Below are positions 8,493-37,401 of a stretch of DNA of 64,000 bases, piece after piece. A program made the position numbers and the translations under genes. Within the stretch, counting starts at the first letter, position 1. Every line of letters begins with the position of its first letter. The notes beneath the pieces are model-generated. The model saw only the letters and a program-made list of their open reading frames with translations, did no database searches and was not told where the DNA came from. Source of the DNA: Paraglaciecola hydrolytica (lineage in GTDB: Bacteria > Pseudomonadota > Gammaproteobacteria > Enterobacterales > Alteromonadaceae); NCBI RefSeq assembly GCF_001565895.1, contig NZ_LSNE01000003.1, forward strand, positions 190,101-254,100, written 5' to 3'.

Positions 8493-8524
8493 ATCCCCTC
8501 CTTTTAGTGACAAGCAGCGAGTAA

Positions 8525-11255: not shown

Positions 11256-11274
11256 TAGCAAAGCCTTATATTTA

Positions 11275-13614: not shown

Positions 13615-13683
13615 AAGATTCTTCCTATTAATAAAACGAACAAATTTCAGCTTATAGTTGCCGTTATGACGACCTGTAAAACA

Positions 13684-13720: not shown

Positions 13721-13729
13721 AGCTAAGAC

Positions 13730-21702: not shown

Positions 21703-21708
21703 CTGTAA

Positions 21709-21975
21709 CTACTCCTCATCCACGCCAAAGCGCTGGTCAATTTTATTCATGGCGTAAACATAATAAAAAATTAATAACACAAAACAATAAATGGCCCCTT
21801 GCTGAGAAAACCAAAAACCGAGTTTAAAACCAAAAAGTTGAAACTGGTTAAGTTGATCAACCAATAAAATACCGCAGCCAAAGGATACAACGAACCAAAT
21901 AACTAAGAGTTTTAACAGTAATAATACTGTGGTGCGCCAATACGCTTGTTTATCATTATCATTTTTGAATCCCAC
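21709..21975 (-). CDS. DUF4212 small subunit of the sodium:solute symporter
   Basis: An 88-residue protein with two membrane helices (about 18-40 and 50-75) and the conserved ending KIDQRFGVDE. It matches the DUF4212/small-subunit family that always accompanies the VC_2705-type symporter. The start is GTG, six bases after AAGGAG. It is translated just ahead of the large subunit; its role is probably assembly or stability of the transporter. Confidence 0.88.
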   Translation of the reverse strand: MGFKNDNDKQAYWRTTVLLLLKLLVIWFVVSFGCGILLVDQLNQFQLFGFKLGFWFSQQGAIYCFVLLIFYYVYAMNKIDQRFGVDEE

Positions 21976-22245
21976 CAGATTCTCCTTAGTTATTATTGTG
22001 AATTTGTTAAAAATTTTAGGCTAGTTAAACCCGACAAAAGTAAATTTAAAAGAGATATATTGCAGTTACGATAATTAATAACATTATAGATTTTTATTAA
22101 CCAGAGCAATAAGTTAAGGATTGAACCATCAAGCCAAAATATCGCACTTTATATAAACTTTTGAATTATCAGGCGAGAAGAAAGGCATTTTATATAGCCT
22201 AAGCAACAAAAATATAACATTATTTTCTAGCTGAATTAGCTAGTA

Positions 22246-23241
22246 CTACATGCTCTCACCTTCGTAAATTTCAAATCCTAGATCAATATGGGTTTCACTA
22301 TTTGTTGCACCATTGATACGTGCAATAAGTTGTTGTGCTGTGACTTGTCCAATTTTGAATCTAGGCGTAATCACTGTTGCTAATGCCGGAGAAGTTAGCT
22401 GCCCCATTTCATGCCCATGCATACCGGTAATGGCTATGTCATCAGGTACTCTTATGCCTTTTTTCTTACAGCTTAATAACATGCCAATAGCTACATCATC
22501 ATTAGTACAAATTGCTGCATCGATTTTTGGCCGAATAGCTAAAATGTTGTGCAAAATTTCTGAACCTAGCCTCATCGACGTGATCTCAGGAGACCTAAAG
22601 ATGATCGGCTCTCTACCTACTTTTTTGACTGCTATTTCGTAACCTTGTTGCCTGGCTAGATCACGTACGTCACCCTTAGCACCTATGTACGTTATGTTCT
22701 GATAGCCTTTGCTCAGCATCCGCTCAGTCATTTGTTTTGCGGCTTCTTCATTATCAAAGCCTACGGCTTGTTGAATGGGTGGCTTACGGGTATCCATGAT
22801 TTCAGTAACAGGCACACCTGAGCCCGCAATCATGCGCAGGGTATTTTGCGTATGCACACTTTCTGACAGAATTAGGCCATCCACATGAAATGATAATAAT
22901 GAAGCAATACGTTTTTCTTCAAGCTGTGGTGAATAAGCATAGTGAGCAATCATAATTTGATAACCCGCAGGTTCAGTTACCGACTCAATGCCGCGTAGTA
23001 CCTCATCAAATACGTGGTTTGAAATAGAGGGAAATAACACCCCGATGGCGTAACTTTTGCCCTTAGACAAAATATTAGGTGCACGGTTAGGGATATAGCC
23101 CATGTTGTTAAGCGCATTTTCAATTTGTATACGTGAAGAAGGCGCAACCAATTGTGGATTTTTTAGGTAACGACTCACCGTCATTTTGGTCATACCAACA
23201 ACATCAGCAATGTCTTGAAGTGAAGTTCTTTTGGATTTCAT
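22246..23241 (-). CDS. gntR: GntR-like LacI-family repressor (gluconate repressor type)
   Basis: A 331-residue LacI-family regulator. It resembles E. coli GntR throughout: LQDIADVVGMTKMTVSRYLKNP in the helix-turn-helix, GYIPNRAPNILS in the hinge, DEVLRGIESVTEPAGYQ and VGFDNEEAAKQMT in the effector domain, and AITGMHGHEMGQ near the C-terminus. E. coli GntR represses gluconate genes and is released by gluconate. Here the gene diverges from a xylonate-type dehydratase, and the shared spacer holds a GntR-type operator at 23450-23465. The natural inducer may therefore be an aldonic acid other than gluconate. The start is ATG 23241. Confidence 0.9.
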   Translation of the reverse strand: MKSKRTSLQDIADVVGMTKMTVSRYLKNPQLVAPSSRIQIENALNNMGYIPNRAPNILSKGKSYAIGVLFPSISNHVFDEVLRGIESVTEPAGYQIMIAHYAYSPQLEEKRIASLLSFHVDGLILSESVHTQNTLRMIAGSGVPVTEIMDTRKPPIQQAVGFDNEEAAKQMTERMLSKGYQNITYIGAKGDVRDLARQQGYEIAVKKVGREPIIFRSPEITSMRLGSEILHNILAIRPKIDAAICTNDDVAIGMLLSCKKKGIRVPDDIAITGMHGHEMGQLTSPALATVITPRFKIGQVTAQQLIARINGATNSETHIDLGFEIYEGESM

Positions 23242-23575
23242 TGTGGCCTAGAGTGGTATCAATTAGTTTGGTTAGCGTTCAAGTTTTTTGTGGCCAACAT
23301 GCGACCAAATTATCCTTTAAAACAAATAGCATAGTTCTTTTCTACATTACAGAACTATGCCGATAACGACTCTCCTTAAAAGTACATTTTTATTATGTTA
23401 ATAATTTTGCGGCTTATTTAACTTCATAAGATCACCTCATTTACTTGTTATGTTACCGGGAACATTTTAGTTTATTAAACAAACTGGCAATACACTTTTT
23501 ATTAAATATGTCGAATGGTTTCCCGACATAAAAATTCACTTGTCATCCAATTAAAATTTATCAAGGTTAAATCAA
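23242..23575. other. Divergent control region between gntR and the sugar-acid operon
   Basis: A 334-bp spacer without a gene. Besides the GntR-type operator it contains a 9-bp inverted repeat CATAGTTCT (23330-23338) / AGAACTATG (23351-23359) with a 12-nt spacer, which could be a second regulator site or a hairpin. AAGG nine bases before the dehydratase ATG is the ribosome-binding site. Confidence 0.55.
23450..23465. promoter_or_regulatory. Candidate GntR operator
   Basis: ATGTTACCGGGAACAT is an inverted repeat with one mismatched pair and agrees closely with the E. coli GntR site, as I recall it (ATGTTACC-GGTAACAT type). It lies 111 bp upstream of the dehydratase start and 209 bp upstream of gntR, so it could control both directions. 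Confidence 0.75.
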
Positions 23576-25357
23576 ATGGAAAAACTTACAAAAACCCGAC
23601 GTTTCCGTTCTGAAGATTGGTTTGATAACCCTGACCATATCGATTTAACCGCCTTATATTTAGAACGTTTTATGAATTACGGCGTTACTCCAGAAGAACT
23701 ACGCTCGGGTAAACCTATTATAGGTATCGCTCAGTCTGGCAGTGATCTCGCTCCATGTAACCGTATCCATCTTGAAACCGTCAAACGTGTAAAAGATGGA
23801 GTGCGTGCGGCTGGCGGCATTCCCATTGAGTTTCCTACTCATCCTATTTTTGAAAATTGTCGACGCCCCACTGCAGCATTAGACAGAAATTTAGCCTACA
23901 TGGGCCTAGTTGAAATTCTCTATGGTTACCCGATAGATGCAGTGGTGTTAACCACAGGTTGCGATAAAACCACTCCATCAAATTTAATGGCGGCGTCAAC
24001 CGTGGATATTCCGGCTATCGTATTATCCGGTGGCCCCATGCTTGACGGTTGGCATGATGGCGAGTTAGTGGGTTCTGGTGCGGTGATTTGGCGCTCCAGA
24101 AAACGTCTGGCAGCAGGTGAAATTGACCAAACTGAATTTCTCAATTTAGCCATGAGTTCAGCGCCTTCAGCCGGCCATTGCAATACCATGGGTACAGCAT
24201 TAACCATGAATTCAGTCGCCGAAGCTCTAGGCATGTCATTAACCGGCTGCGCCGCCATTCCAGCACCTTATAAAGAACGTGGCCAGATGGCCTACCGGAC
24301 AGGTGTACGTATTGTTGAAATGGCGTATGAAGACCTAGTACCCTCTAAAATTTTAAGCCGTGAGGCCTTTATTAATGCCATGAAAGTCATTGCAGCCATT
24401 GGTGGCTCGACTAATGCTCATCCTCATCTAATGGCGATGGCCAGACATGCAGGTGTTGAAATCACCCCCGAAGATTGGAACACCCTAGCAAGACCCATTC
24501 ATTTGTTGGCCAACATACAACCAGCCGGTAAATATTTAGGTGAACGATTCCACCGGGCAGGTGGCGTACCCGCCATTATGTGGGAGTTGCTCAATGCAGG
24601 AGAGTTGCATGGCGACGTGCCCACTGTCACTGGACGTACCATGTCCGAAAACCTGCAAAACCAACAAAGCCATGACCCAGAGGTCATCAAACCTTACTCA
24701 ACACCCATTAAAAAAGCCGCGGGCTTTGCCGTGTTTTCAGGTAATTTCTTTGATTTTGCCATCATGAAAACCAGTGTTATTTCTGCTGATTTTGAACAGC
24801 GTTTTTTATCAAAGCCTGGCAGTAAAGGAGTTTTTGATGCACGAGCGGTGGTATTCGATACCTCAGAACAGTATCACACCACCATCAATGATCCTGCGTT
24901 AAACATCGATGGAAACTGCATTTTGGTATTACGTGGTGCTGGTCCAATCGGTTGGCCTGGCTCGGCCGAGGTCGTCAACATGCAGCCACCCGATTATTTA
25001 ATTAAACAAGGGATCACCAGCTTACCAACCCTGGGTGATGGGCGCCAATCAGGCACGTCTGATAGTCCTTCGATTTTGCATGTTTGCCCAGAAAGCTCAG
25101 TGGGTGGCGGCTTAGCTTATATCCAGTCTGGCGATATATTACGTATCGATATTGCCAATGGGATTTGTGATGTGCTGTTAGATAAAGGTGAATTAGCGCT
25201 ACGTAAACAATCCAGTATTGCCTCTGCGCCAGAATCTCAAACACCATGGCAAGAAATTTATCGCAATACTGTGGGTGATTTATCGCAAGGAGCCGTATTA
25301 GAGCTGGGCACAAAATATCGAAAAATTGCGCAAAATTTGCCGCGGCACAATCACTAA
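23576..25357 (+). CDS. xylD: D-xylonate (aldonate) dehydratase, IlvD/Edd family
   Basis: A 593-residue cytosolic dehydratase. It resembles Caulobacter XylD over its whole length, from RRFRSEDWFDNPDHIDLTALYLERF near the start to the ending NLPRHNH. IlvD/Edd-family cluster ligands are visible as TTGCDKTTP and SAGHCNTMGT. The enzyme removes water from an aldonic acid to give a 2-keto-3-deoxy acid; D-xylonate is the likeliest substrate, though L-arabonate or D-fuconate cannot be excluded. It is the first gene of the rightward series and faces gntR across an operator. The following two genes complete the route to 2-oxoglutarate. Confidence 0.88.
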   Translation: MEKLTKTRRFRSEDWFDNPDHIDLTALYLERFMNYGVTPEELRSGKPIIGIAQSGSDLAPCNRIHLETVKRVKDGVRAAGGIPIEFPTHPIFENCRRPTAALDRNLAYMGLVEILYGYPIDAVVLTTGCDKTTPSNLMAASTVDIPAIVLSGGPMLDGWHDGELVGSGAVIWRSRKRLAAGEIDQTEFLNLAMSSAPSAGHCNTMGTALTMNSVAEALGMSLTGCAAIPAPYKERGQMAYRTGVRIVEMAYEDLVPSKILSREAFINAMKVIAAIGGSTNAHPHLMAMARHAGVEITPEDWNTLARPIHLLANIQPAGKYLGERFHRAGGVPAIMWELLNAGELHGDVPTVTGRTMSENLQNQQSHDPEVIKPYSTPIKKAAGFAVFSGNFFDFAIMKTSVISADFEQRFLSKPGSKGVFDARAVVFDTSEQYHTTINDPALNIDGNCILVLRGAGPIGWPGSAEVVNMQPPDYLIKQGITSLPTLGDGRQSGTSDSPSILHVCPESSVGGGLAYIQSGDILRIDIANGICDVLLDKGELALRKQSSIASAPESQTPWQEIYRNTVGDLSQGAVLELGTKYRKIAQNLPRHNH

Positions 25358-25428
25358 CTAAAGCAGCATTAATTAAAGAAGCATTAGCCAAGAATCACGA
25401 ACATGAACTCAATCACTAGGTTTCGAAC

Positions 25429-26622
25429 ATGCAACTAACAAGTTATTTACCATCAGATCAATATGCAGGCACATTAATTGGTCGAGCTTGGGTGCCTCAA
25501 TCCAAAGACTTTCCCATCGCTGGGCCAACACCAATTTGGCTATATGACGCTACTGTTTATGACTTATCTAGTGTAGCCGCGACCTGCTCTGAATTACTTA
25601 ACATTGGCATCACTAAACAACAGTTAGAGGAGCAGTTAGAAGCGGGCCAATTCAAAGCACTAGGTAGCGTCGAAACTTTATATGCTAACTCAATACAGCG
25701 GCCATTAGACAAGGGCTATTTACATTTATTATCACCTTTCGATTTACAAGCTATTAAAGCCTGTGGGGTAACCTTTGCCAGCTCAATGTTAGAACGCGTC
25801 ATTGAAGAAAAGGCCGAAGGCAACGCCGATATAGCTAAAGATATTAGACAAAAAATTTACGACACTATTGGCTCGTCCATCAGCAAGCTGGTGCCCGGTT
25901 CCCAAGAGGCCCTTGAGCTCAAAGAGATACTGATTAAAGAAAATATGTGGTCGCAATACTTAGAAGTAGGTATAGGCCCTTACGCCGAGGTGTTTACCAA
26001 ATCCCAGCCATTATCGTCTGTTGGTTTGGGCGCCCAAGTTGGTCTACATCCCATCTCAAATTGGAATAATCCAGAGCCTGAAATTGTATTAGCGGTCAAT
26101 AACCAAGGCCAAATAGTTGGTTGTTCGTTGGGTAATGATGTGAATTTGCGCGATATTGAAGGCCGCAGCGCTTTGTTATTAGGTAAAGCCAAAGATAATA
26201 ATGCATCTTGTGCTATTGGACCGATTATTCGCTTATTTGATAACAGCTTTTCCTTAGACGACGTGCGAACCTCCATAGTTACCCTGAATGTAAAAGGCGC
26301 ACAAGATGGCTATGAATTAGACGCCACCAACGACATGACAAAAATAAGCCGCGATGTAGCAGACTTAGTGTCGCAAACCATTTCAGATTGCCATCAATAT
26401 CCAGATGGTTTGGCATTATTCACTGGCACATTGTTCACACCGACTCAAGACCGCGGCGAAGCAGGCAAAGGTTTTACCCATAAGACCGGCGACATTGTTA
26501 GTATTTCGACTAAGTACATTGGCACCTTGCAAAATACCGTAGATTTCTCAAATAAAATCGCTCCCTGGGAATTTGGCATTAGCGCCTTAATGAAAAATCT
26601 TGCACAACGCAATTTAATTTAG
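25429..26622 (+). CDS. xylX: 2-keto-3-deoxy-D-xylonate dehydratase, FAH family
   Basis: A 397-residue protein of the fumarylacetoacetate-hydrolase superfamily, of the length and type of Caulobacter XylX. The C-terminal catalytic half shows VGLHPISNWNNPEPEIVL (metal-ligand region), CSLGNDVNLRDIEGRSALLLGKAKD and the ending region with GEAGKGFTHKTGDIV. In the Weimberg pathway this enzyme dehydrates 2-keto-3-deoxypentonate to 2-oxoglutarate semialdehyde. It begins 71 nt after the dehydratase, and the spacer contains an imperfect duplication around AAAGCAGCATTA/AAAGAAGCATTA. Its stop codon lies inside the first unit of a 15-bp tandem repeat that leads to the next gene. Confidence 0.85.
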   Translation: MQLTSYLPSDQYAGTLIGRAWVPQSKDFPIAGPTPIWLYDATVYDLSSVAATCSELLNIGITKQQLEEQLEAGQFKALGSVETLYANSIQRPLDKGYLHLLSPFDLQAIKACGVTFASSMLERVIEEKAEGNADIAKDIRQKIYDTIGSSISKLVPGSQEALELKEILIKENMWSQYLEVGIGPYAEVFTKSQPLSSVGLGAQVGLHPISNWNNPEPEIVLAVNNQGQIVGCSLGNDVNLRDIEGRSALLLGKAKDNNASCAIGPIIRLFDNSFSLDDVRTSIVTLNVKGAQDGYELDATNDMTKISRDVADLVSQTISDCHQYPDGLALFTGTLFTPTQDRGEAGKGFTHKTGDIVSISTKYIGTLQNTVDFSNKIAPWEFGISALMKNLAQRNLI

Positions 26623-26660
26623 GAACAACTAATTTAGGAACAATCAATTTAGGAAAGAAC
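26616..26660 (+). repeat. Triple 15-bp tandem repeat carrying the ribosome-binding site
   Basis: Three contiguous 15-bp units of the form AATTTAGGAACAAYY fill the space between xylX and the aldehyde dehydrogenase gene, at 26616-26630, 26631-26645 and 26646-26660. Each contains AGGAA. The first overlaps the xylX stop codon, and the third is the functional Shine-Dalgarno site, with ATG at 26662. Copy-number change would add or remove a decoy site. Confidence 0.85.
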
Positions 26661-26661
26661 T

Positions 26662-28248
26662 ATGATTAATTTAACCCAACAATCTTACATTGCTGGTACC
26701 TGGCTTGCTCCTCAAGGCAGTGTTTTTCAAGCGCAAGATCCTGCGACTTTGGACTTGTTAGCGCAACATCACAGTTGCCAACAAAACGAAGTTGAGCAAG
26801 CCCTGCAAGCCGCGACCTGTGCTTTTCCAGCTTTTAGCCAAACGTCTATCAGCGCCCGAGCGGCATTTCTCGAAGCTATTGCCTTAGAAATTGAAGCATT
26901 AGGCGAGCAATTATTAAATGTATGTAACCAAGAAACTGGTTTAGGCATTCCAAGATTAACCGGTGAACGTGGTCGCACTACTGGGCAAATACGAGCCTTT
27001 GCCACCATCGTTAAAAACAGTAGTTGGGTACAAGCCAGTATTGATACCGCTGATGCACAACGCCAACCTGTACCTAAGCCGGATTTACGTAAGCTATTAA
27101 AACCCCTTGGTCCGGTTGCGGTATTTGGTGCTTCAAATTTTCCTTTTGCCTTTGGCACACTAGGCGGAGATACCATTTCAGCCCTGGCCTCGGGTAATCC
27201 TGTGATTGTCAAAGGCCATCCTTCACATCCTGCTAGTAATGAACTTTTTGCCAGTGTGATGGATAAAGCTATCGCAAAATCGGGCATGCCAAAGGGGGTA
27301 TTTTCATTATTGCAGGGCAATACCATCTCGTTATCCATTGAATTGGTGACACATCCACTCACTCAAGCGGTTGGTTTTACTGGCTCATTAAATGCTGGCA
27401 GAGCAATAATGGATGCCGTGGCAAGACGCACTAAACCTATTCCTGTCTATGCAGAGATGGGCAGTGTTAATCCGGTATTCATGACACATAATGCCTTACT
27501 TCAATCAGGCGCAAGCATTGCGCAAAATCTGGCTAACTCAGTGTGTTTAGGCACGGGGCAATTTTGTACTTCTCCGGGAGTGGTTGTTATCCAAAAAAAT
27601 CCAGTCTTTGTAAGTTTAGTCGCGCAAGGTATGGACAAAAACCCCAGAAACCTACTGTTAAACCAAGGCATAGGCAAAGCCTTTGCGCAGGGTGTTAAAC
27701 AGTTTTTGCACTATCCAGAGGTGAATTGGGTTAACAGTAATAACCAAGCATTAGAACCTTCGATTCAACCAGCTAACATTGTACTTACTGCCTCTGCTGC
27801 AACATTTTTAGCTAATCCAGATTTACAACACGAAGTATTTGGCCCAGCAACACTGATTGTTGAATGCGATAACGAACAAGAGTTTATTGCTATTGCCCAA
27901 GCGTTAGACGGTAACTTAACAGCGAGTATTCACACCACCGAACAAGATACCGCATTGGTAAAAAGTTTAATGGCAGAACTCGAGCAAAAAGTAGGGCGTA
28001 TTATATTTAATGGTTTTCCAACCGGTGTTGAAGTTTGTGGTTCACAAAATCACGGCGGCCCTTATCCATCTTCATCGGTAGCCTCTTCAACCAGTGTGGG
28101 GATTGATGCTATCTACCGCTTTGTAAGATTTGTTAGCTACCAAGATACCCCTAACAACCTTTTACCTGTTGAATTACAAAATAGTAACCCACTCAACATC
28201 ATGCGCCGCATTAACGGCGCGTTCACGACGGATCCAATCACAAAATAA
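26662..28248 (+). CDS. 2-oxoglutarate semialdehyde (2,5-dioxopentanoate) dehydrogenase
   Basis: A 528-residue NADP/NAD-dependent aldehyde dehydrogenase of the KGSA dehydrogenase type. The cofactor region has FGASNFPFAFGTLGGDTISALASGNPVIVKGHPSHP. The general base Glu lies in YAEMGSVNPVF and the catalytic Cys in LGTGQFCTSPGV. In the Weimberg and arabinonate pathways it oxidises 2-oxoglutarate semialdehyde to 2-oxoglutarate, which enters the TCA cycle. It follows xylX and completes the three-enzyme module in one operon. After it a 436-bp spacer separates this module from the next seven genes. Confidence 0.9.
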   Translation: MINLTQQSYIAGTWLAPQGSVFQAQDPATLDLLAQHHSCQQNEVEQALQAATCAFPAFSQTSISARAAFLEAIALEIEALGEQLLNVCNQETGLGIPRLTGERGRTTGQIRAFATIVKNSSWVQASIDTADAQRQPVPKPDLRKLLKPLGPVAVFGASNFPFAFGTLGGDTISALASGNPVIVKGHPSHPASNELFASVMDKAIAKSGMPKGVFSLLQGNTISLSIELVTHPLTQAVGFTGSLNAGRAIMDAVARRTKPIPVYAEMGSVNPVFMTHNALLQSGASIAQNLANSVCLGTGQFCTSPGVVVIQKNPVFVSLVAQGMDKNPRNLLLNQGIGKAFAQGVKQFLHYPEVNWVNSNNQALEPSIQPANIVLTASAATFLANPDLQHEVFGPATLIVECDNEQEFIAIAQALDGNLTASIHTTEQDTALVKSLMAELEQKVGRIIFNGFPTGVEVCGSQNHGGPYPSSSVASSTSVGIDAIYRFVRFVSYQDTPNNLLPVELQNSNPLNIMRRINGAFTTDPITK

Positions 28249-28684
28249 TGAATTACCTGTATCCCCTTTATCATTGGAATTGCACGGCGGCCGCAAAGGA
28301 ACTCAGCCCCATGAGCTTAACCGAACAAAGTGATTCGGGTGAGTGGGTGCAGCCAACAAAGGTTCCGTTTCAAAGATGAAGGGTAGAGTAAACCACATGA
28401 CTGGAGGTGCAAGGATGCACCACTTGCCCTCACACGCCTTATTCTCGTTTTGCTTTATTCTCCATGTCATTAAAATTAATGATTCTTTCTCGCTAGGTCG
28501 CTTAATTTATATAGCCCCAAGTGCTTATTACTGAGTACCAAAATAATTACCAGCGCCGAATTTGTTGCATAGATTTGCCGAATTTATGTTAGGAGTTTGT
28601 AGCAACAGCAAGGTAGGATTGTTAACATAAAATTAACCTATTTCTGTATTCCGAAATAGACCAGTAAAATTGAGTTAAGGAATT
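28249..28684. repeat. Structured intergenic region, probable dispersed repeat plus promoter
   Basis: A 436-bp spacer with no supported gene. The stretch 28281-28380 has base composition unlike its AT-rich surroundings and can fold: ACTCAGCCC (28301-28309) pairs with GGGTGAGT (28337-28344) with one bulge. Its ending, CCAACAAAGGTTCCGTTTC followed by AAGATGAAGGGTA, recalls a short intergenic repeat seen in Alteromonadales genomes (recollection, not checked). A second hairpin, GGTGCA-AGGA-TGCACC, lies at 28406-28421. Nearer the next gene, CTATTTC/GAAATAG (28638-28659) is a 7-bp inverted repeat that may be an operator for a second promoter. Confidence 0.5.
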
Positions 28685-29851
28685 ATGGCAAAATCCAAGA
28701 TAAGAATGGGCATGGTTGGCGGTGGTCAAGGTGCTTTCATTGGGGCAGTACACCGTATTGCCGCTAATATTGATGGTGAGATAGAACTCGTTTGTGGCGC
28801 ATTTAGTTCTAACGGTGAACGCAGCGTCGCATCAGGTGCCGATTTATATTTACCCGCCAATAGATGTTACGCCACTTATACCGAGATGTTTGCAGCCGAA
28901 GCTAAACTGCCTGCAGAGCAAAGAATGCAATTTGTGGCAATAGTCACGCCTAATCATTTGCATTTTGCGGTGGCCAAAGCGGCACTAGAAGCTGGTTTTC
29001 ATGTACTGAGTGACAAGCCTGCTACTTTCAATTTGCAACAAGCGGTTGACCTTGCAGAGGTGGTGAAAACCTCAGGCCAACTTTATGGTTTAACCCATAC
29101 CTACAACGGTTACCCGCTGGTTAAACAAGCTCAGCACATAGTCGCCAGTGGTCAGCTAGGCAAAATTACTAAAGTCATTGTCGAATATACCCAAGGCTGG
29201 TTAGCTGATAAAGCAGGTGATTCCGGCAAACAAGCCGCTTGGCGGGTTGATCCTAAACAAGCGGGGATTAGCTGCTGTATGGGTGATATTGGTGTGCATG
29301 CGGCCAATCTTGCTGAATATGTCACCGGTGCCAAAATTTCTGCCATGTGTTCAGACTTAAACAGCGTAGTTGATGGTCGACTATTAGATGATGATGGTAC
29401 GGTACTATTACGTTTTGACAATGGCGCTCGTGGTGTTTTGCTCTCCAGCCAAGTGCAAGTCGGTGACGAAAATAATCTGCGTTTACGTATATTTGGCGAC
29501 AAAGGCAGCATTGAATGGTCGCAACTTGAACCTAACAGTTTATGGTTAAAATCCAATACCGCGCCGACTCAACTTATTCGCACAGGTGTCGGTGAGTTTT
29601 GCCCTGCTGCACAAGCGGCTATTCGCACTCCCGCAGGTCATCCAGAAGGTTATTTAGAAGCCTTTGCCAATATTTATGGCAACTTTGTTAAACAGATCAG
29701 AGCCTTTGAAGCCGGTGAAGAACACTCAAATGCCACCTTTGACGTGCCTGGCATTGATGAAGCGATCCGTGGCATGGCCTTTATAGAAAACAGTGTGATC
29801 TTCAGTCAATCAGAAACGAAATGGCATGACTTCGTTATCTCTCCACTTTAA
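28685..29851 (+). CDS. Gfo/Idh/MocA-family sugar oxidoreductase
   Basis: A 388-residue cytosolic NAD(P)-dependent oxidoreductase. The N-terminal Rossmann fold begins RMGMVGGGQGAFIG and contains VAIVTPNHLHFAVAKAALEAGFHVLSDKPATF, where DKP replaces the usual EKP lysine motif of the family. The C-terminal sheet domain follows, with CCMGDIGVHAANLAEYVTG giving the catalytic His region. Members interconvert hydroxyl and keto groups on sugars; in operons with DUF1080 and GMC proteins they are thought to act on 3-keto sugars. It opens the second half of the rightward series and has AAGGA just before its ATG. Confidence 0.88.
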   Translation: MAKSKIRMGMVGGGQGAFIGAVHRIAANIDGEIELVCGAFSSNGERSVASGADLYLPANRCYATYTEMFAAEAKLPAEQRMQFVAIVTPNHLHFAVAKAALEAGFHVLSDKPATFNLQQAVDLAEVVKTSGQLYGLTHTYNGYPLVKQAQHIVASGQLGKITKVIVEYTQGWLADKAGDSGKQAAWRVDPKQAGISCCMGDIGVHAANLAEYVTGAKISAMCSDLNSVVDGRLLDDDGTVLLRFDNGARGVLLSSQVQVGDENNLRLRIFGDKGSIEWSQLEPNSLWLKSNTAPTQLIRTGVGEFCPAAQAAIRTPAGHPEGYLEAFANIYGNFVKQIRAFEAGEEHSNATFDVPGIDEAIRGMAFIENSVIFSQSETKWHDFVISPL

Positions 29852-29869
29852 TCAATCAGGACAGTCAAG

Positions 29870-30925
29870 ATGAAACAAATCAAAGGACCAGGGATTTTTT
29901 TAGCGCAATTTGCTGGCAACGATAGCCCTTTTAATTCTTTTCCAGAAATCTGTAAATGGGCAGCAGGCAACGGCTTTAAAGGCATTCAAGTGCCATCGTG
30001 GGACGGCCGTTTATTTGACTTGGAAAAAGCCGGTACCAGTAAAGATTATTGTGATGAAATCGCCGGCATTGCCAAACAATCTGGCTTAGAAATCACTGAG
30101 CTATCGACTCATTTACAAGGCCAGTTAGTCGCGGTTCACCCCGCTTATGACCAAATGTTTGATGGTTTTGCGCCAGCTAGCGTGCACGGTAATCCTGCCG
30201 CTCGTACTGAGTGGGCCGTTAAACAAATGAAATTGGCCGCTAAAGCCAGCCAATATTTAGGTTTGAAAGGGCATGCGAGTTTTTCAGGCGCACTGTTATG
30301 GCAGACCTTTTACCCTTGGCCACAACGCCCTGCAGGCTTAGTTGAACAAGGTTTTGCCGAATTAGCAAAACGTTGGAAACCGATTCTGAACGCCTTTGAT
30401 GATGCGGGTGTCGATGTTTGTTATGAACTTCATCCAGGTGAAGATTTACATGATGGTGTGACATTTGAGCGCTTCTTGGAAGCGGTAGATAACCACCCTC
30501 GTGCCAACATTCTTTATGACCCAAGCCACTTTGTACTGCAACAACTGGATTATTTGGCCTTCATCGATATTTATCATGAACGTATTAAAGCCTTCCATGT
30601 AAAAGATGCCGAGTTCACCCCGAATGGGCGTTCTGGTGTCTACGGTGGATATCAAGGATGGATTGATCGTCCTGGACGTTTTCGTTCACTAGGCGACGGG
30701 CAAATCAACTTTAAGAGCATATTCAGCAAATTGACACAGTACAATTTTGATGGATGGGCTGTTATGGAGTGGGAATGTGCTATCAAACATCCTGAAGATG
30801 GGGCGGCAGAAGGCGCTAAATTTATTAGTGAGCATCTGATTAGACCGACAGAAAAAGCCTTCGACGACTTTGCTGGTGTGGAAAAAGACGTTGAAATGAA
30901 TAACAAAATACTCGGCATTAAATAA
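29870..30925 (+). CDS. Sugar phosphate isomerase/epimerase-like TIM barrel, cytosolic
   Basis: A 351-residue protein of the xylose-isomerase-like/AP-endonuclease-2 TIM-barrel superfamily. Metal-binding and strand-end motifs are visible: VCYELHPGEDLHDG, ANILYDPSHFVLQQLDY, IKAFHVKDAEFTPNGRSG and WAVMEWECAIKHPEDG. There is no signal peptide. Members are isomerases, epimerases or dehydratases of sugars and inositols; this one is always a neighbour of Gfo/Idh oxidoreductases in similar clusters, which fits isomerisation of an oxidised sugar. It lies 18 nt after the oxidoreductase and 13 nt before the transporter, so it is co-transcribed with both. Confidence 0.85.
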   Translation: MKQIKGPGIFLAQFAGNDSPFNSFPEICKWAAGNGFKGIQVPSWDGRLFDLEKAGTSKDYCDEIAGIAKQSGLEITELSTHLQGQLVAVHPAYDQMFDGFAPASVHGNPAARTEWAVKQMKLAAKASQYLGLKGHASFSGALLWQTFYPWPQRPAGLVEQGFAELAKRWKPILNAFDDAGVDVCYELHPGEDLHDGVTFERFLEAVDNHPRANILYDPSHFVLQQLDYLAFIDIYHERIKAFHVKDAEFTPNGRSGVYGGYQGWIDRPGRFRSLGDGQINFKSIFSKLTQYNFDGWAVMEWECAIKHPEDGAAEGAKFISEHLIRPTEKAFDDFAGVEKDVEMNNKILGIK

Positions 30926-30938
30926 GGTAAATAATAAT

Positions 30939-32171
30939 ATGAGTGCAACAAACAACATTTCAGATAAAGACGCTAAACGCGTCTTTCGTATCAGTTGTAT
31001 CGCCCTAATCGTCACTGCGATGACCTTTGCTATCCGCGCTGGGATCTTGCCAGAATTAGGCCAAAAATACGGCTTAAGTGGTGAAGAACTGGGCTGGATC
31101 GCCAGTATGGCCTTTTTAGGTTTCCCACTGGCCATGATGTTTGGTGGCATTCTGTATAACGCCATTGGCCCTAAACTCATTGTTTGGTTAGCCTTTATCG
31201 GTCACGCCTTAGGATTAATCTTAACTATCATCGCCGATGGATTTTGGGGCTTGATGATCTCAACCTTCTTAGTCGGTTTTGCCAACGGTTTAGTCGAAGC
31301 AGGCTGTAATCCCATTATCGCGCAACTCTATCCCGATAATAAAACCGCAATGTTAAATAGATTTCACGTATGGTTCCCAGGCGGTATCGTGATTGGCTCT
31401 TTAGTTTCTGCCGCAATGGCTAAGTTAGGCCTAGGTTGGGAAGCTCAAGTCGCCACTATGTTGGTACCAACGGCTATCTACGGCGTAATGATGTTAGGGT
31501 TTACCTTCCCTAAATTAGAAAGCGAAGTCGATTCCACCAGCGGCAACTTGAAAGCGCTAATTAACCCTATCTACATCTTTTTAGCTGTGTGCATGACCAT
31601 GACAGCGGTAAGTGAATTTGGTCCAGGACAATGGATTAACAAAATTCTAGAAGCCTCTGGCGCAACTCCAATGTTAATTTTAGCCTTGATTACCGGCATC
31701 ATGGCCCTTGGTCGTTATTATGCTGGCCCACTAGTACATAAACTAAGCCCTCCAGGTGTGTTATTGGTTTCGGCTGTATTAGCCAGCTTAGGTTTGTTTT
31801 TAATGACGCAACTTTCAGGTACCGCTGTTTATTTTGCTGCCGTAGTATTTGCCTTAGGTATTACCTACTTCTGGCCAACTATGATTGGTTGTACCGCAGA
31901 ATACACCCCTAAAACAGGTGCCTTGGGTATGTCGCTAATGGGCGGCGCGGGCATGTTTGCTATGGGTATTTGGAATCCCATTATTGGTGGTTGGATTGAT
32001 TCTGCCACTAAAGAAGCAACAGCTGCAGGTTTAAGCGGTAACGAACTCGCTTTGGCGTCGGGGCAAGCGGCGCTTAATAACCTGATCATGTTCCCCTTGG
32101 TACTAATTGTGTTGTTTGCTGGATTTTACTGGTTCATGCGTAAATCAAATTCAGCCGCGGCTAGTCACTAA
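30939..32171 (+). CDS. MFS transporter of the oxidised-sugar operon
   Basis: A 410-residue major facilitator with about 12 membrane helices. An early basic cytosolic N-terminus (SDKDAKRVFR) precedes helix 1; AEFTP-like and RFHVWFPGGIVIGSL motifs resemble fucose/glucose permease-like and sugar:proton symporters of the FHS branch. It presumably moves the product of the periplasmic GMC/DUF1080 steps into the cytosol, where the Gfo/Idh and Weimberg enzymes act. It is embedded in the operon with AAGG before its ATG. The substrate is inferred only from position. Confidence 0.85.
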   Translation: MSATNNISDKDAKRVFRISCIALIVTAMTFAIRAGILPELGQKYGLSGEELGWIASMAFLGFPLAMMFGGILYNAIGPKLIVWLAFIGHALGLILTIIADGFWGLMISTFLVGFANGLVEAGCNPIIAQLYPDNKTAMLNRFHVWFPGGIVIGSLVSAAMAKLGLGWEAQVATMLVPTAIYGVMMLGFTFPKLESEVDSTSGNLKALINPIYIFLAVCMTMTAVSEFGPGQWINKILEASGATPMLILALITGIMALGRYYAGPLVHKLSPPGVLLVSAVLASLGLFLMTQLSGTAVYFAAVVFALGITYFWPTMIGCTAEYTPKTGALGMSLMGGAGMFAMGIWNPIIGGWIDSATKEATAAGLSGNELALASGQAALNNLIMFPLVLIVLFAGFYWFMRKSNSAAASH

Positions 32172-32187
32172 TTAATACGGGAAATTT

Positions 32188-33126
32188 ATGTCAACTCAAA
32201 ACCTTAATGTAACTACAACAGAGCAGATTTCTGACTCTCGCCGTCAAATAATAAAAAATTTGGCGGCAGGTGCTGCAGGTGTTGGATTGCTCTCTCAGGT
32301 AAGCAACAGCACTGCAGCAGAGGCCAAAACACCTCAATCAGTAAACCGCCCTCTGAAAGGCAATATTCACCATTCTATGGCACGCTGGACTTATCAAGAT
32401 CTCAGTGTTGAAGAGCTCTGTCAGGTTGTAATAAAACTAGGGTTCAGTGCAATTGATTTAATTGGCCCAGATGAATGGCCGATACTCAAAAAATATGGTG
32501 TACATAGTTCAATGTGTAATGGCGCTGAACTTAATCTAACCGATGGTTGGGGAGACACACAGTTTCATGAAGCGCTCATCGTGCGTTATCACCGTCACAT
32601 TGATTTAGTCGCTGATGCGGGTTACACCAATCTGATTTGTTTTAGTGGTAACAAACGGGGAATGGCGCCAGAAGTTGGATTGGAAAATGCGGTCTTAGGA
32701 CTTAAACAAATCTTACCCCATGCTGAGAAGCGTGGGGTCATTCTGCAAATGGAACTGTTTAACAGTAAAGTCAATCACCCCGATTATTTTGCCGACAACT
32801 CCGCTTGGGGCATTGAACTGTGCAAACGTTTAGACTCACCAAACTTTAAACTGCTTTACGATATTTATCATATGCAGATCAGTGAAGGCGACATCATCCG
32901 CACTATTAAAGATAACCACCAATATTTTGGTCATTATCATACTGCTGGTGTACCTGGACGCCACGAAATTGATGAGTCACAAGAATTATTTTATCCGGCT
33001 ATCGCTAAGGCCATTTTAGCCACTGGTTTTAAAGGCTATTTAGCGCAGGAATTTCTTCCTACCCCGCCAGATATGCCGGGAAAAATTGAATCATTACGCC
33101 AGGCCATTCAAATTTGTGATGTGTAA
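32188..33126 (+). CDS. Exported hydroxypyruvate-isomerase-like TIM barrel (Tat signal)
   Basis: A 312-residue xylose-isomerase-like TIM barrel of the hydroxypyruvate isomerase type. It begins with a twin-arginine-like signal: SRRQIIKNLAAGAAGVGLLS at about 17-36, followed by a polar linker TAAEAKTP. Family motifs are MELFNSKVNHPDYFADNS, KLLYDIYHMQISEGD, YFGHYHTAGVPGRHEID and GYLAQEFLP; the Glu, Asp and His ligands are all present. A cofactor-binding-type Tat signal on this fold suggests folded export to the periplasm, where it could isomerise or epimerise a keto sugar. It differs from the cytosolic TIM barrel two genes upstream in both length and location. Confidence 0.85.
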   Translation: MSTQNLNVTTTEQISDSRRQIIKNLAAGAAGVGLLSQVSNSTAAEAKTPQSVNRPLKGNIHHSMARWTYQDLSVEELCQVVIKLGFSAIDLIGPDEWPILKKYGVHSSMCNGAELNLTDGWGDTQFHEALIVRYHRHIDLVADAGYTNLICFSGNKRGMAPEVGLENAVLGLKQILPHAEKRGVILQMELFNSKVNHPDYFADNSAWGIELCKRLDSPNFKLLYDIYHMQISEGDIIRTIKDNHQYFGHYHTAGVPGRHEIDESQELFYPAIAKAILATGFKGYLAQEFLPTPPDMPGKIESLRQAIQICDV

Positions 33127-33176
33127 ACAAACCCTAGGTAGTGATAAAACAAACTAAGTTGTTGAACGAGAAATTT

Positions 33177-34862
33177 ATGGCAAATAATGATTATGATGCG
33201 ATCGTAGTTGGTTCTGGGATCAGTGGCGGTTGGGCCGCAAAAGAGCTAGCACAGAAAGGCTTAAAAGTGTTGATGCTCGAACGTGGGCGCAACATTGAAC
33301 ATATCAAAGACTACACCAATGCAATGCATGAGGCTTGGGACTATCCTCACCGCGGTTTAGCCACCCAACAAATGAAAGCAGATTATCCAACGTTAGCGCG
33401 CGAATATACTCTGAATGAACCCACTGCAGGCATGTGGGCAACCAACAAAGACCACCCTTATACCGAAGTAAAACGTTTTGACTGGTTTAGGGGCTACCAC
33501 ATGGGCGGACGTTCGTTATTATGGGGTCGTCAAAGTTACCGTTGGAACGCCGAAGATTTTACCGCCAACCTGAAAGAAGGCATCGCCGTAGACTGGCCCA
33601 TACGCTACGAAGAACTTGCTCCTTGGTATGATTATGTCGAAAAATTTGCAGGCATTGCAGGTACCAACGAAGGTTTAGATGTATTACCCGATGGGCAGTT
33701 TTTACCACCTATACCTCTGAATATGGTTGAAAAAGACGTCGCTAAACGTTTAGAAAAAGTCTACAAAGGCATGCGTCATCTTATTCATAGCCGTACAGCT
33801 AACATCACTCAGGCGATGCCAGAGCAAGATCGTGTTGGTTGTCAGTATCGTAATAAATGCTGGCTTGGCTGTCCTTTCGGTGGTTACTTCAGTACACAAT
33901 CGTCTACCTTACCTGTGGCACTAAAAACCGGTAACTTGACTGTACGCCCTTATTCTATTGTGACTCAGGTGCTGTATGACAAGAACACAAAAAGAGCCAC
34001 TGGTGTTGAAGTCTTAGATTCTGAAACCAATCAAACTTACGTGTTTAACAGTAAAATCGTGTTTTTGAATGCCTCGACCTTAAACTCAACCTGGATCATG
34101 ATGAACTCTGCTTCCGATATATGGCAAGGTGGTTTAGGTTCAAGCTCGGGTGAATTAGGTCACAACGTCATGGATCACCATCTTTCTATTGGTGCACAAG
34201 GCACCATCGAAGGATATGAAGACAAATATTATTCTGGCCGTCGCCCTTGTGGATTTTATATCCCACGATATCGCAATTGGGGTGGCGACAAACGTGATTA
34301 TGTACGTGGATTTGGATATCAAGGCTCTGCTTCACGTGGCAACTGGCAACAGAATGTGGCCGAACTGGGTGTAGGTGCAGACTTAAAAAATGCACTGGCT
34401 GAACCGGGATCATGGAATATCGGCATGGGTGGTTTTGGTGAAATATTACCTGATCATCGTAACAAAGTGAGCCTAGATAAAACGGTAAAAGACAAATGGG
34501 GTTTACCGGTACTATCTATGGATGCTGAGTTACAAGCCAATGAAAAACGTATGCGTAAAGACATGAAACAAGATGCCATAGACATGTTAGAAGCGGCGGG
34601 CGTAAAAAATGTACGTGGTTGGGACGGCGAATCTCCCTTAGGTAAAGGCATTCACGAAATGGGTACGGCACGTATGGGCCGTGATGCCAAAACGTCGGTA
34701 CTGAATGCTAACAACCAAGTTTGGGACGCACCTAACGTATTTGTCACCGATGGTGCGTGTATGACCTCGGCTTCTTGTGTTAACCCTTCTTTGACTTATA
34801 TGGCTATCACTGCCAGAGCAGCAAATTTTGCTGTTGAAGAGCTTAAAAAGAGGAATCTGTAA
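33177..34862 (+). CDS. GMC-type FAD-dependent sugar dehydrogenase, large subunit
   Basis: A flavoprotein of about 561 residues. The FAD-binding motif YDAIVVGSGISGGWAAKELA starts at residue 6, and HMGGRSLLWGRQSYRW and GCQYRNKCWLGCPFG (Cys-rich) follow. The catalytic pair region is IHEMGTARMG (His) and SCVNPSLTYMA (Asn) near the C-terminus. It resembles gluconate/glucoside-3-dehydrogenase large subunits, which oxidise sugars and pass electrons to the respiratory chain. It has no signal of its own; export by riding with the Tat-tagged small subunit encoded next is expected. I choose ATG 33177 over the upstream GTG 33141 because it gives the usual MANNDYDAIVVG start. Its stop overlaps the next ATG. 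Confidence 0.9.
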   Translation: MANNDYDAIVVGSGISGGWAAKELAQKGLKVLMLERGRNIEHIKDYTNAMHEAWDYPHRGLATQQMKADYPTLAREYTLNEPTAGMWATNKDHPYTEVKRFDWFRGYHMGGRSLLWGRQSYRWNAEDFTANLKEGIAVDWPIRYEELAPWYDYVEKFAGIAGTNEGLDVLPDGQFLPPIPLNMVEKDVAKRLEKVYKGMRHLIHSRTANITQAMPEQDRVGCQYRNKCWLGCPFGGYFSTQSSTLPVALKTGNLTVRPYSIVTQVLYDKNTKRATGVEVLDSETNQTYVFNSKIVFLNASTLNSTWIMMNSASDIWQGGLGSSSGELGHNVMDHHLSIGAQGTIEGYEDKYYSGRRPCGFYIPRYRNWGGDKRDYVRGFGYQGSASRGNWQQNVAELGVGADLKNALAEPGSWNIGMGGFGEILPDHRNKVSLDKTVKDKWGLPVLSMDAELQANEKRMRKDMKQDAIDMLEAAGVKNVRGWDGESPLGKGIHEMGTARMGRDAKTSVLNANNQVWDAPNVFVTDGACMTSASCVNPSLTYMAITARAANFAVEELKKRNL

Positions 34863-35476
34863 TGGAAAGACGCCAGTTACTCAAAATGATCATGGCCGCC
34901 AGTGGTGTTGCCATGGTCGGTGGCAATGCTTTGGCTTACGAAATGGGCAGCCCTGTTGCGTTATCAGCCACCCAGTTTAATCAAGATGATGTGATGTTGT
35001 TTAATGACATTGCAGAAGTGATCTTACCCCGCACGGACACACCCGGAGCGAAAGACGCTAACGTGGGTTTAATGGCCCTCATCTTAGCCAATGATTGTTA
35101 CAATACAAAAGAACGAGAACAGTTTGTAAAAGGCTTTCAAAGCTTGAATAAATTAACACAAAATAAATATGGCAAACCCTTCTTATTATTAAGCACTGAG
35201 CAAAAATCTAAATTTGTAAAAGGTTTAGATAAAGAAGCTAAAACCTATAATAAAAAACAAGAAATCTACTATGTTCCAGCGACCTCATTTGATCGCTATG
35301 CAAGTGAAGAGAACCCAGTAGTGCCGCACTTTTTTACCATGATCAAGCAGTTAACCATTTTCACCTTTTTTACCTCAAAAGAAGGTGCAACTAAGGTCTT
35401 ACGTTATGAAGCGATACCTGGCAAATATAATGGTGAACTTGATTATAAAAAAGGCGACCGTGCCTGGGCTACTTAA
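34862..35476 (+). CDS. Gluconate 2-dehydrogenase subunit 3-like protein, Tat-exported
   Basis: A 204-residue small subunit. The N-terminus MERRQLLKMIMAASGVAMVG is a twin-arginine signal (RRQLLK), ending near NALA. The body matches gluconate_2-dh3 proteins, including IAEVILPRTDTPGAKDANVG, and ends with a conserved Pro/Tyr-rich region. It pairs with the GMC flavoprotein, and the reading frames overlap as TAATG, so the two are made together. The small subunit probably carries the large one through the Tat system. A cytochrome c subunit, part of some three-subunit dehydrogenases, is not encoded nearby. Confidence 0.9.
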   Translation: MERRQLLKMIMAASGVAMVGGNALAYEMGSPVALSATQFNQDDVMLFNDIAEVILPRTDTPGAKDANVGLMALILANDCYNTKEREQFVKGFQSLNKLTQNKYGKPFLLLSTEQKSKFVKGLDKEAKTYNKKQEIYYVPATSFDRYASEENPVVPHFFTMIKQLTIFTFFTSKEGATKVLRYEAIPGKYNGELDYKKGDRAWAT

Positions 35477-35526
35477 TAAAATAATGTAGATTTAAAGCGT
35501 AATAAATCATTAATGAGTGGAATGTT

Positions 35527-36288
35527 ATGAAAACAACAAAAATTGCTTCACTGGCTAGCCTAGTTGCTTTAGCCGCTTATTGTTCGTCAGCACTAACTGC
35601 GGCAGAAAAGCCCTTAGAACCTTGGCAACAAGCAGAAAAAACCGAAGTATGGGAGCCAGTTCCAGCAGTCGTAACAGCCAAAGCAGGTACGCCTCCTTCA
35701 GACGCCATTGTATTAATAGGTGATGGTCCATTATCTCAATGGGATGGGCTTAAAGGTGGTGCGGCAGCGTGGACTATAGGTAAAGGTAAAATTACCGTCA
35801 AACCTGGTACCGGTGATATTAAAACCAAACAATCATTTTGTGATATTCAGTTGCACTTTGAATGGCAAGCACCAATCCCAGAAGAAGGCATGCAAGGCCA
35901 ACAACGCAACAATAGCGGGATCTTTTTTCAGCAACGTTATGAAGTACAAGTACTCGATTCATTCGAAAACCTTACTTATCCCAATGGGCAAGCGGGTTCG
36001 GTTTATAAACAATCTATCCCCTTAGTCAATGCCACACGTCCACCAGGCGAATGGCAGACTTACGATATTATTTATAAAGCTCCTCGTTTTGAAGGCGTAA
36101 GCTTAAGTTCGCCAGGCTTTGTCACCGTATTACACAACGGAGTATTGGTGCAAAACCACACTGAGATCCAAGGTACAACGGAATGGATAGGTGCACCTAA
36201 ATATGAAGCCCATGGCTGTGCGCCTTTGCAATTGCAAGACCATGGTAACTTGGTAAGTTTCCGCAATATGTGGGTACGTGAACTTTAG
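35527..36288 (+). CDS. Exported DUF1080 (3-keto-disaccharide hydrolase/lyase-like) protein
   Basis: A 253-residue exported protein with a Sec signal (LASLVALAAYCSSALTAAE) and one DUF1080 jelly roll of the concanavalin type (about 55-250). Family features include SQWDGLKGGAAAWTI, CDIQLHFEWQAP, NNSGIFFQQRYEVQVLDSF, PPGEWQTYDIIYKAP and a final GNLVSFRNMWVREL. DUF1080 proteins have been linked to cleavage of 3-keto-glycosides. Beside a GMC/subunit-3 dehydrogenase this suggests a periplasmic step in which an oxidised glycoside is cleaved. It is the last gene of the series; no terminator hairpin was found in the 10-nt gap to the convergent MBL gene. Confidence 0.88.
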   Translation: MKTTKIASLASLVALAAYCSSALTAAEKPLEPWQQAEKTEVWEPVPAVVTAKAGTPPSDAIVLIGDGPLSQWDGLKGGAAAWTIGKGKITVKPGTGDIKTKQSFCDIQLHFEWQAPIPEEGMQGQQRNNSGIFFQQRYEVQVLDSFENLTYPNGQAGSVYKQSIPLVNATRPPGEWQTYDIIYKAPRFEGVSLSSPGFVTVLHNGVLVQNHTEIQGTTEWIGAPKYEAHGCAPLQLQDHGNLVSFRNMWVREL

Positions 36289-36298
36289 TTTTTGGTAT

Positions 36299-37054
36299 TT
36301 ATGACTTACGGCTGCGCAGCCATAACTTAGCTTTAATTTTGGTTGCGCGCCAAGGTGTCTGTGGTAGTCGTGGAGCTACCGTACTTAAGTGGGCATATTC
36401 ATTTTCACTTAAACTTACCTCTCCACCATGAGCTAACCATAGCGCCTTAAGTTGCATATCTCTGACCTTTTGCAAAGACGCTCTATATTGGTTGGGATGA
36501 AAGACCGGAAAAGGTGGAATAAAACGTTTTTTTACTTTGACCATTAAATCAGCCACATACATACGATGACTGGGGCGATGTAATAGCGAAATATCACGAT
36601 CAGTATGGCCTGGAGTCGAAACCGACGTCCATTCTGTAAAATCAGGCAAGATATCACCATCCTCCAACTCAATATCGGGTTTAAGATGAGGTGAATACCA
36701 CAGATTTTTTTTCGGTTTACCTAAACGCCCCGCCACCCAAGCTGCCAATAATATATCTGTTAAGTGCAGCAAACGCCCATTCAAGCCACGATACCAATGT
36801 CTTGTAGTTTTGCCGCTGGCGATTTTACAGCCAGTCAAATCGCGTAACTTATGCGCCGCTCCTGCATGATCAGGATGCATATGGGTAACAACAATCAGTT
36901 TTAAATCACTAAAAGGGCGTTGCAATTCGTGAGTAATATAACGTTTAAGCTCATCGATATCAGCGCGGCAACAGCCATCCAACAATAACAATCCTTGTGG
37001 ATATTCCACGAGATAAATACTTTGGATGTAACCTTTAAGTTGATGCAGTTTCAA
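36299..37054 (-). CDS. Metallo-beta-lactamase-fold hydrolase
   Basis: A 251-residue cytosolic MBL-fold protein. The zinc motif THMHPDHAGAAHKL lies near residue 58, with the later ligands in STPGHTDRDISLLH (His) and YVADLMVK (Asp). The family includes glyoxalase II, lactonases and other hydrolases; the substrate is not evident. The start is TTG 37054 with no ATG available nearby, which is unusual, and no clear ribosome-binding site is placed before it. It lies 8 nt after a small 57-residue gene and converges on the DUF1080 gene. Confidence 0.85.
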   Translation of the reverse strand: MKLHQLKGYIQSIYLVEYPQGLLLLDGCCRADIDELKRYITHELQRPFSDLKLIVVTHMHPDHAGAAHKLRDLTGCKIASGKTTRHWYRGLNGRLLHLTDILLAAWVAGRLGKPKKNLWYSPHLKPDIELEDGDILPDFTEWTSVSTPGHTDRDISLLHRPSHRMYVADLMVKVKKRFIPPFPVFHPNQYRASLQKVRDMQLKALWLAHGGEVSLSENEYAHLSTVAPRLPQTPWRATKIKAKLWLRSRKS

Positions 37055-37062
37055 AATAGTGG

Positions 37063-37236
37063 CTAGCTAGCCTCGCCAGCATTGGCTTTTTGCTCAATGT
37101 ATTCAATGGCTTTTTGCATACTGCCAAAAGCATTGATCAAGTTTTGACGGCCCTTTTGCATCAACTCTGGGCTATCCTTTTCCGACATCATCCACACCCA
37201 AGTGCGGATTAACGACTCTGGTGGCAATTTATGCAT
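37063..37236 (-). CDS. Small conserved-looking hypothetical protein (57 residues)
   Basis: A 57-residue soluble protein, MHKLPPESLIRTWVWMMSEK followed by helices and ending in EYIEQKANAGEAS. The start ATG 37236 has GAGGAG six to eight bases upstream, a strong site, while the longer frame to 37287 lacks one. It looks helical, without a signal or membrane segment, and I do not recognise a family. It lies 8 nt upstream of the MBL hydrolase gene, so the two are probably co-transcribed. Confidence 0.65.
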   Translation of the reverse strand: MHKLPPESLIRTWVWMMSEKDSPELMQKGRQNLINAFGSMQKAIEYIEQKANAGEAS

Positions 37237-37401
37237 AATGTGCTCCTCACTTAATGGTATAAACTTGCTAGCAAACAGAATAGTCATTATATCCTGTCAA
37301 CTGCACGCATTCGAGTGAACTTTTTAGCAAATTCAATGGCTTGGGAATAATACAACCCAATGAAGACACATTTTTTAACCTGATAAATAGAATAGAAACC
37401 T

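Follow-up and report, generated by a model that had tools for sequence, protein, structure and literature searches.

Do ten consecutive genes on one strand encode one metabolic route or two? This question is raised by positions 23242–36288 of the window, that is, of the whole stretch of 64,000 nucleotides analyzed here (contig NZ_LSNE01000003.1 of assembly GCF_001565895.1, positions 190,101–254,100) from Paraglaciecola hydrolytica, whose genome size is 5.22 Mb. A first-pass annotation had read the block as a single module, in which periplasmic oxidation and cleavage of a glycoside are followed by import of the product, a part of which is burned through 2-oxoglutarate. We find that the block very probably arose by the juxtaposition, in its history, of two catabolic units that are already known, and is not one coupled pathway.

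Division of the block and spread of its halves

All ten genes are present at full length on the plus strand, each with a match to its claimed family above the Pfam cut-off, and family annotation agrees with the earlier statement that a xylose dehydrogenase and a lactonase are missing from the block. Export signals were judged by sequence, no signal-peptide program being used. The block consists of two units with 436 bp (28249–28684) between them. The left unit contains the genes of XylD, XylX and an aldehyde dehydrogenase (ALDH) at 23576–28248. The divergent gene of a LacI-family regulator (22246–23241, minus strand) belongs to it as well, and so, probably, does the gene of an SSF sodium:solute symporter (19981–21702, minus strand). 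The right unit extends from the Gfo/Idh gene to the DUF1080 gene (28685–36288). Within the gap are one copy of a dispersed repeat, about 115 bp long, and, apart from it, a conserved element. The order and strand of the supposed single module stand, whereas its unity does not.

The two units are spread separately. GMC matches at E 1e-50 were found in 67 of the 147 genomes of the family, whereas XylX is scarce (7/147). None of 26 other orthologous GMC loci (71–92% identity) has XylD, XylX or ALDH nearby; these loci were read over up to 20 kb using tblastn with E 1e-10 and 40% coverage. The stretches of L048, L065 and L070 were shorter than 19.9 kb. Half of them (13/26) have a LacI-family gene upstream, encoding a protein 26–28% identical to the LacI of the window. 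Nine further loci of GMC relatives (32–55%) were read, four of them belonging to the own genome; one of the nine, L067, carries XylD (40%) and ALDH (45%), both on the opposite strand. Taken from the other side, the Gfo and hydratase genes of the right unit lie near XylX in two of 86 XylX loci, L089 and L100; this set includes at least two contigs entered twice (L083/L091 and L084/L097), and 80 of 189 named relatives were retained for the XylX comparison.

Of the 22 genomes of the genus, 19 have the hydratase and four have XylX; the two adjoin in three (G000, G147 and G156), and in G157 they are on separate contigs. Consistent separation of the halves in homologous genomes had been named in advance as an outcome speaking against a single module. 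This is largely what was observed, both in the 26 GMC loci and in the genus, where the left genes are not beside the hydratase in 16 of the 19 genomes having it; three species have kept the adjacency. On the hydratase tree G000, G147, G156 and G162 form one clade with support 100/99, the branching inside it being left unresolved. G162 has no XylX, and a MAKSKK-type gene stands directly upstream of its Gfo; in G147 and G156 this gene is found on the far side of the left unit. The adjacency requires one event only: an insertion in this clade explains it, with the left genes lost or absent in G162.

The two halves have separate conserved cis-elements. The putative LacI operator of the left unit, ATGTTACCGGGAACAT, is found exactly at 23450–23465 (no strand), and the window has no second site at up to two mismatches, a looseness at which 0.79 chance matches are expected. 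The same site stands directly before the GH43 gene in L089, L090, L091 and L093; variants of it precede the GH43 gene of L185 and adjoin LacI in L092 and L099. It resembles the GntR operator of E. coli, and the LacI protein of the left unit is predicted to bind it. The right unit has a conserved direct-repeat element, GCCGAATTTGTTGCATAGATTTGCCGAATTTAT, before Gfo (28555–28587, plus strand). Of the 19 genus genomes that encode the hydratase, 11 have kept it at up to two mismatches to the pattern, and eight of these 11 have no XylX. The other eight hydratase genomes lack the element; in seven of them a LacI-family gene is located upstream of Gfo instead. G150 has the element in front of its hydratase gene, because the Gfo homologue (66%) is more distant there and on the other strand.

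A single LacI governing both units was considered and rejected, since the operator occurs once in the window and not before Gfo, and the other element, that of Gfo, is kept in XylX-less species. Separate LacI control has its caveats. In L053 an operator-like palindrome with two mismatches precedes the Gfo gene of that locus, next to a different LacI; further matches with one or two mismatches were found in L053, L067, L083, L091, L184 and L189; and in L090, L093 and L195 such a match forms a second site beside LacI. With neither consistent co-occurrence nor shared cis-regulation, the proposal that the halves make up one pathway was not borne out.

The XylD–XylX–ALDH unit

The lower enzymes of the Weimberg pathway are XylD, XylX and α-ketoglutarate-semialdehyde (KGSA) dehydrogenase. 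The left unit has enzymes of the first two types. The XylD-type pentonate (D-xylonate) dehydratase (23576–25357, plus strand) scores 990 bits with NF009560 (cut-off 684) and 997 bits with PDB 5oyn. The XylX-type 2-keto-3-deoxy-pentonate dehydratase of the FAH fold (25429–26622, plus strand; Pfam FAA_hydrolase) scores 373 bits with PDB 9kkt and 71 bits with 2q18, a 2-keto-3-deoxy-D-arabinonate dehydratase. The third protein (26662–28248, plus strand; Pfam Aldedh) matches PDB 3v4c and 1eyy with about 400 bits each, and none of the 25 NCBIfam models listed for it scores above its cut-off; its family is certain, and by its neighbor genes it is presumed to be the 2-oxoglutarate-semialdehyde dehydrogenase. 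The xylose dehydrogenase and lactonase of the Weimberg pathway would have to be sought outside the block. Homology thus supports the earlier suggestion that the three enzymes would convert a pentonate, presumably D-xylonate, to 2-oxoglutarate.

The regulator is GntR/IdnR-like, although both NCBIfam matches are below cut-off (IdnR, 397 bits with a cut-off of 500; GntR, 377 bits with a cut-off of 433). Its homologue is located 5' of XylD in L089, L090, L092, L093 and L099 (74–86% identity) and in L185 (82%). The symporter (Pfam SSF) adjoins LacI in the same place, with 89% identity, in Paraglaciecola algarum (L089); in G156 it is not beside LacI.

In close relatives, the Weimberg-type cluster is larger. 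We examined nine such loci (L089–L094, L097, L099 and L185) for the cluster genes using tblastn. A GH43 gene precedes XylD in eight of them (67–100% identity to that of L089) and is not seen in L094. A GPH transporter and a 2-hydroxyacid dehydrogenase are each present in eight loci: the L092 contig ends short of their region, and in L094 they are only 45–47% identical, with the transporter farther away. An SGL lactonase was found in five loci (L090, L091, L097, L099 and L185). The families of the L089 GH43, GPH and 2-hydroxyacid dehydrogenase proteins and of the L090 lactonase were assigned with Pfam. The window has no orthologue of GH43, GPH or 2-hydroxyacid dehydrogenase between LacI and Gfo, whereas G147 and G156 have all three there.

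The simplest view is that the left unit is a pruned xylan/xylose cluster still serving xylonate: a LacI-controlled remnant of the cluster of Paraglaciecola and Colwellia, which would turn xylonate, imported or produced elsewhere, into 2-oxoglutarate. Since the genome encodes a xylose isomerase (683 bits, above cut-off), xylose need not pass through these genes. A membrane pyrroloquinoline-quinone dehydrogenase was not found in the genome; dehydrogenases of the short-chain dehydrogenase/reductase and Gfo types acting on xylose were not searched genome-wide. In two Oceanospirillaceae loci, a protein resembling short-chain dehydrogenases by eye is encoded divergently from XylX (L100, 8895–9656; L098, 8876–9637); it is a candidate xylose dehydrogenase.

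It is possible, though we would not favor it, that the left unit is already a decaying relic, the GH43, lactonase and transporter genes having gone while a xylose isomerase is present; such decay is compatible with the juxtaposition of two units. Besides the three genes that G147 and G156 have and the window has not, the weak best matches of the relatives' cluster genes in the own genome (GH43, 31%, 8/14 places compared; lactonase, 32%; GPH, 48%) and the repeat at the junction point in this direction. On the other hand, the three remaining genes are of full length and 77–91% identical to their copies in G147 and G156, and the operator is retained. The lactonase is also missing from G147, hence its loss by itself says little.

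The predicted 3-keto-glycoside unit and its cassettes

The first three genes of the right unit, all on the plus strand as are the rest, encode a Gfo/Idh oxidoreductase (28685–29851; Pfam GFO_IDH_MocA; PDB 3v5n, 342 bits), a cytosolic TIM barrel (29870–30925) and an MFS transporter (30939–32171; Pfam MFS_1), the presumed importer of a cleaved keto-sugar. The TIM barrel is identical in 251 of 350 positions (72%; 601 bits) to PDB 8ro4, named 2-hydroxy-3-keto-glucal hydratase. They are followed by a second TIM barrel with a twin-arginine translocation (Tat) motif at residue 17 (32188–33126; Pfam AP_endonuc_2, the family of the first TIM barrel too) and by a GMC flavoprotein, the likely large subunit of a glycoside 3-dehydrogenase (33141–34862; Pfam GMC_oxred_N/C), which matches PDB large subunits of fructose and glucose dehydrogenases with about 105–114 bits and itself lacks a Tat motif. 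The Gluconate_2-dh3 small subunit, or subunit 3 (34862–35476; PF13618, 107.7 bits), carries such a motif at residue 3 (RRQLL). The last protein (35527–36288; PF06439, 134 bits, above cut-off; PDB 4qhz, 245 bits) has the family match expected of an exported DUF1080 enzyme, and would cleave 3-keto-glycosides as a 3-keto-disaccharide hydrolase or lyase.

A similar operon has been described in Agrobacterium tumefaciens. It encodes the dehydrogenase GlycDH, a Mn-dependent TIM-barrel eliminase (AtOGE), a hydratase, for which the evidence given is preliminary, and a Gfo reductase; the route proceeds by oxidation, elimination, hydration and reduction, and a Tat protein was co-expressed with GlycDH (PMC10628242). 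As far as that account goes, the window shares with it the GMC-type dehydrogenase with a Tat protein, the Gfo protein and, by prediction, the four-step chemistry, and additionally has the DUF1080 protein and the MFS transporter. We infer that PDB 8ro4 is the hydratase of this operon, AtHYD. By analogy with the same operon, the Gfo/Idh protein is probably a cytosolic 3-keto-glucose reductase. It was rejected as the missing xylose dehydrogenase: it scores far below cut-off with the levoglucosan dehydrogenase model (97 bits, cut-off 650) and with the Gfo6 xylose dehydrogenase model (70 bits, cut-off 350), and genomes that have no XylX also have it together with the hydratase.

The lac cluster of Caulobacter crescentus encodes the lactose 3-dehydrogenase LacABC and a DUF1080 protein proposed to be a 3'-ketolactose hydrolase (PMC9007349). 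Going by what this paper reports, the cluster and the window have in common a GMC dehydrogenase with a small subunit, an exported DUF1080 protein, a transporter, a sugar reductase and two sugar epimerases, which we take as the TIM barrels; the likeness rests on gene content, protein identity to Caulobacter not having been measured. The six frames of 28000–38000 contain a single CXXCH motif, and the open stretch around it is 13 aa long. No cytochrome c gene (lacB) was thus found in this region, to which the search was confined, and the right unit is not classed as a LacABC system in the strict sense. The levoglucosan pathway LgdA-B1-B2-C of Bacillus smithii follows the same logic of oxidation, elimination, hydration and reduction, but its substrate is levoglucosan, and the abstract names no exported GMC flavoprotein (PMC7676230).

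The near match of the hydratase to 8ro4, together with a gene set like that of published clusters, makes the right half a known kind of operon. Homology therefore supports the earlier reading that it serves periplasmic oxidation and cleavage of glycosides, with the final steps in the cytosol, and this type of pathway has already been published (PMC10628242, PMC9007349). In the proposed sequence the GMC dehydrogenase with its Tat-tagged subunit 3 would oxidise a glycoside at C3 in the periplasm, the DUF1080 protein and/or the exported TIM barrel would cleave the 3-keto-glycoside, the MFS protein would import the keto-sugar, and the hydratase and the Gfo/Idh reductase would yield a hexose, glucose by analogy.

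The exported TIM barrel may be a 3-keto-glycoside eliminase or 4-epimerase. Its residues E189, D225, H251 and E288, invariant in 12 sequences, are presumed metal ligands by comparison with the superfamily; the set reported for AtOGE is His132-Asp163-His189-Glu233 (PMC10628242). The AtOGE structure 8BVK is absent among the sequence matches listed at E 0.001. The protein was not classed as an eliminase of the AtOGE type, given neither a listed match to 8BVK nor the H-D-H-E set. A structural model built from three sequences (predicted local distance difference test score, pLDDT, 62) has the 3-keto-D-glucoside 4-epimerase YcjR (6wn6) as the first fold match among the best 50 of 381 at E 0.001; the top fold matches are epimerases and isomerases, and they differ too little to fix the function.

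The periplasmic part of the unit is variable. The window's subclade comprises 11 genomes with DUF84 downstream and has a variable slot between the MFS gene and MBL/DUF84 (32188–36288 in the window); the cassette loci include L182, L184, L186, L188–L193 and L042. Three of the 11 genomes (G000, G158 and G004) carry a type A cassette (TIM barrel, GMC, subunit 3, DUF1080), seven carry type B, another pair of subunit 3 and GMC proteins, and G156 has no oxidase in the slot. The type B GMC protein is 44–48% identical to that of the window in the five genomes read. In all 19 genus genomes with the hydratase the numbers are 10 (type A), 8 (type B) and 1 (no oxidase). The cytosolic core of the window is closest to those of G147 and G156 (hydratase 95–96%), whereas its GMC protein is closest to those of G158 (91%, the hydratase there being 84% identical) and of G023 from another genus (92%). 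This discrepancy suggests an exchange of the oxidase cassette.

A more specific reading is speculative. The right unit could be a modular route split between compartments, with a fixed cytosolic core (Gfo, hydratase and MFS) importing the reactive keto-sugar or 2-hydroxy-3-keto-glycal that the interchangeable periplasmic oxidase cassettes A and B would produce. In this scheme the Tat TIM barrel would be a periplasmic 3-keto-glycoside 4-epimerase admitting galactosides to the glucose-forming branch, which is suggested by its residue set, unlike that of AtOGE, and by YcjR as the first fold match. If true, this would answer the fate of 3-ketogalactose, a question left open in PMC9007349 so far as its text goes.

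The junction and the case for a link

The repeat copy at the junction (28270–28385, no strand) has at least 40 matches in the own genome including itself (40 of 101 candidates were scored). It is MITE-like (miniature inverted-repeat transposable element) and, judged by eye, appears to have terminal inverted repeats; the DNA alignment of its copies mixed orientations and was used just to view the repeat. The copy occupies the gap where relatives have the GPH transporter and 2-hydroxyacid dehydrogenase genes. No Rfam match at gathering scores was found in 21700–37500, and RNA folding of the gap is no better than that of shuffles (z −0.13).

Several observations weigh against two unconnected units. 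Three related species, G000, P. algarum (G147) and G156, retain the adjacency, with protein identity of 77–96%. In an Oceanospirillaceae metagenome-assembled genome (L100) Gfo and hydratase lie 7–9 kb from XylX on the opposite strand, and in G023:C15 the Gfo-hydratase-MFS genes of a GMC paralogue locus are preceded, at a distance of about 3.5 kb and on the opposite strand, by a divergent XylD (40–41%) and ALDH (45%). The operator scan covered the window and 30 loci, not the whole genome. Finally, no plus-strand terminator was found between the units (28100–28800), so transcription may still read through from the left unit to the right one. The same G023:C15 locus (L222) encodes a sugar-acid dehydratase (41% to XylD), an ALDH and, by eye, a GntP-like permease at 1463–6406, and a keto-glycoside operon at 9882–17538, divergent and on the opposite strand from the dehydratase and ALDH.

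The missing terminator and the loose pairings in L100 and G023:C15 would fit a sugar island, that is, unrelated operons clustered together and weakly co-transcribed by read-through with no metabolic link. We regard this as a minority possibility, itself compatible with historical juxtaposition; the separate conserved element before Gfo and the 436 bp preceding that gene speak against it. A coupled pathway, in which a xylosyl- or pentosyl-glycoside would be oxidised and cleaved in the periplasm and its pentose or pentonate half burned to 2-oxoglutarate by the left genes, both units being controlled together, is very improbable: strand and order, the adjacency retained in G000, G147 and G156, and the GH43 gene still present in the left unit of the latter two favor it, but many genomes have the right unit and not the left one, the conserved cis-elements differ, the left unit of G156 adjoins Gfo, hydratase and MFS with no oxidase gene at the site, the oxidase pair of G147 is of another type, and 8ro4, the solved relative of the hydratase, is named for a hexose-derived keto-glucal. 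We found no open-licence PMC paper linking a xylonate gene cluster with GMC and 3-keto.

Elsewhere in the window, a second sugar cluster (6135–16438) encodes a LacI regulator, an MFS_2 transporter, a GH2 enzyme with DUF4982, a TonB-dependent receptor and a protein of 904 aa for which Pfam gave no match at 1e-5. A VIT/VWA-domain protein adjoins a sortase at 45504–48241, an arrangement that occurs in marine Gram-negative bacteria.

With the block read as a juxtaposition of two units, the proposed new pathway is replaced by two known ones. That genes adjoin on one strand says little for their coupling, as a lineage-specific insertion beside an older operon looks alike. With differing cassettes beside one cytosolic core, what the exported TIM barrel and the DUF1080 protein do becomes testable by comparison of species that have them with species that lack them.

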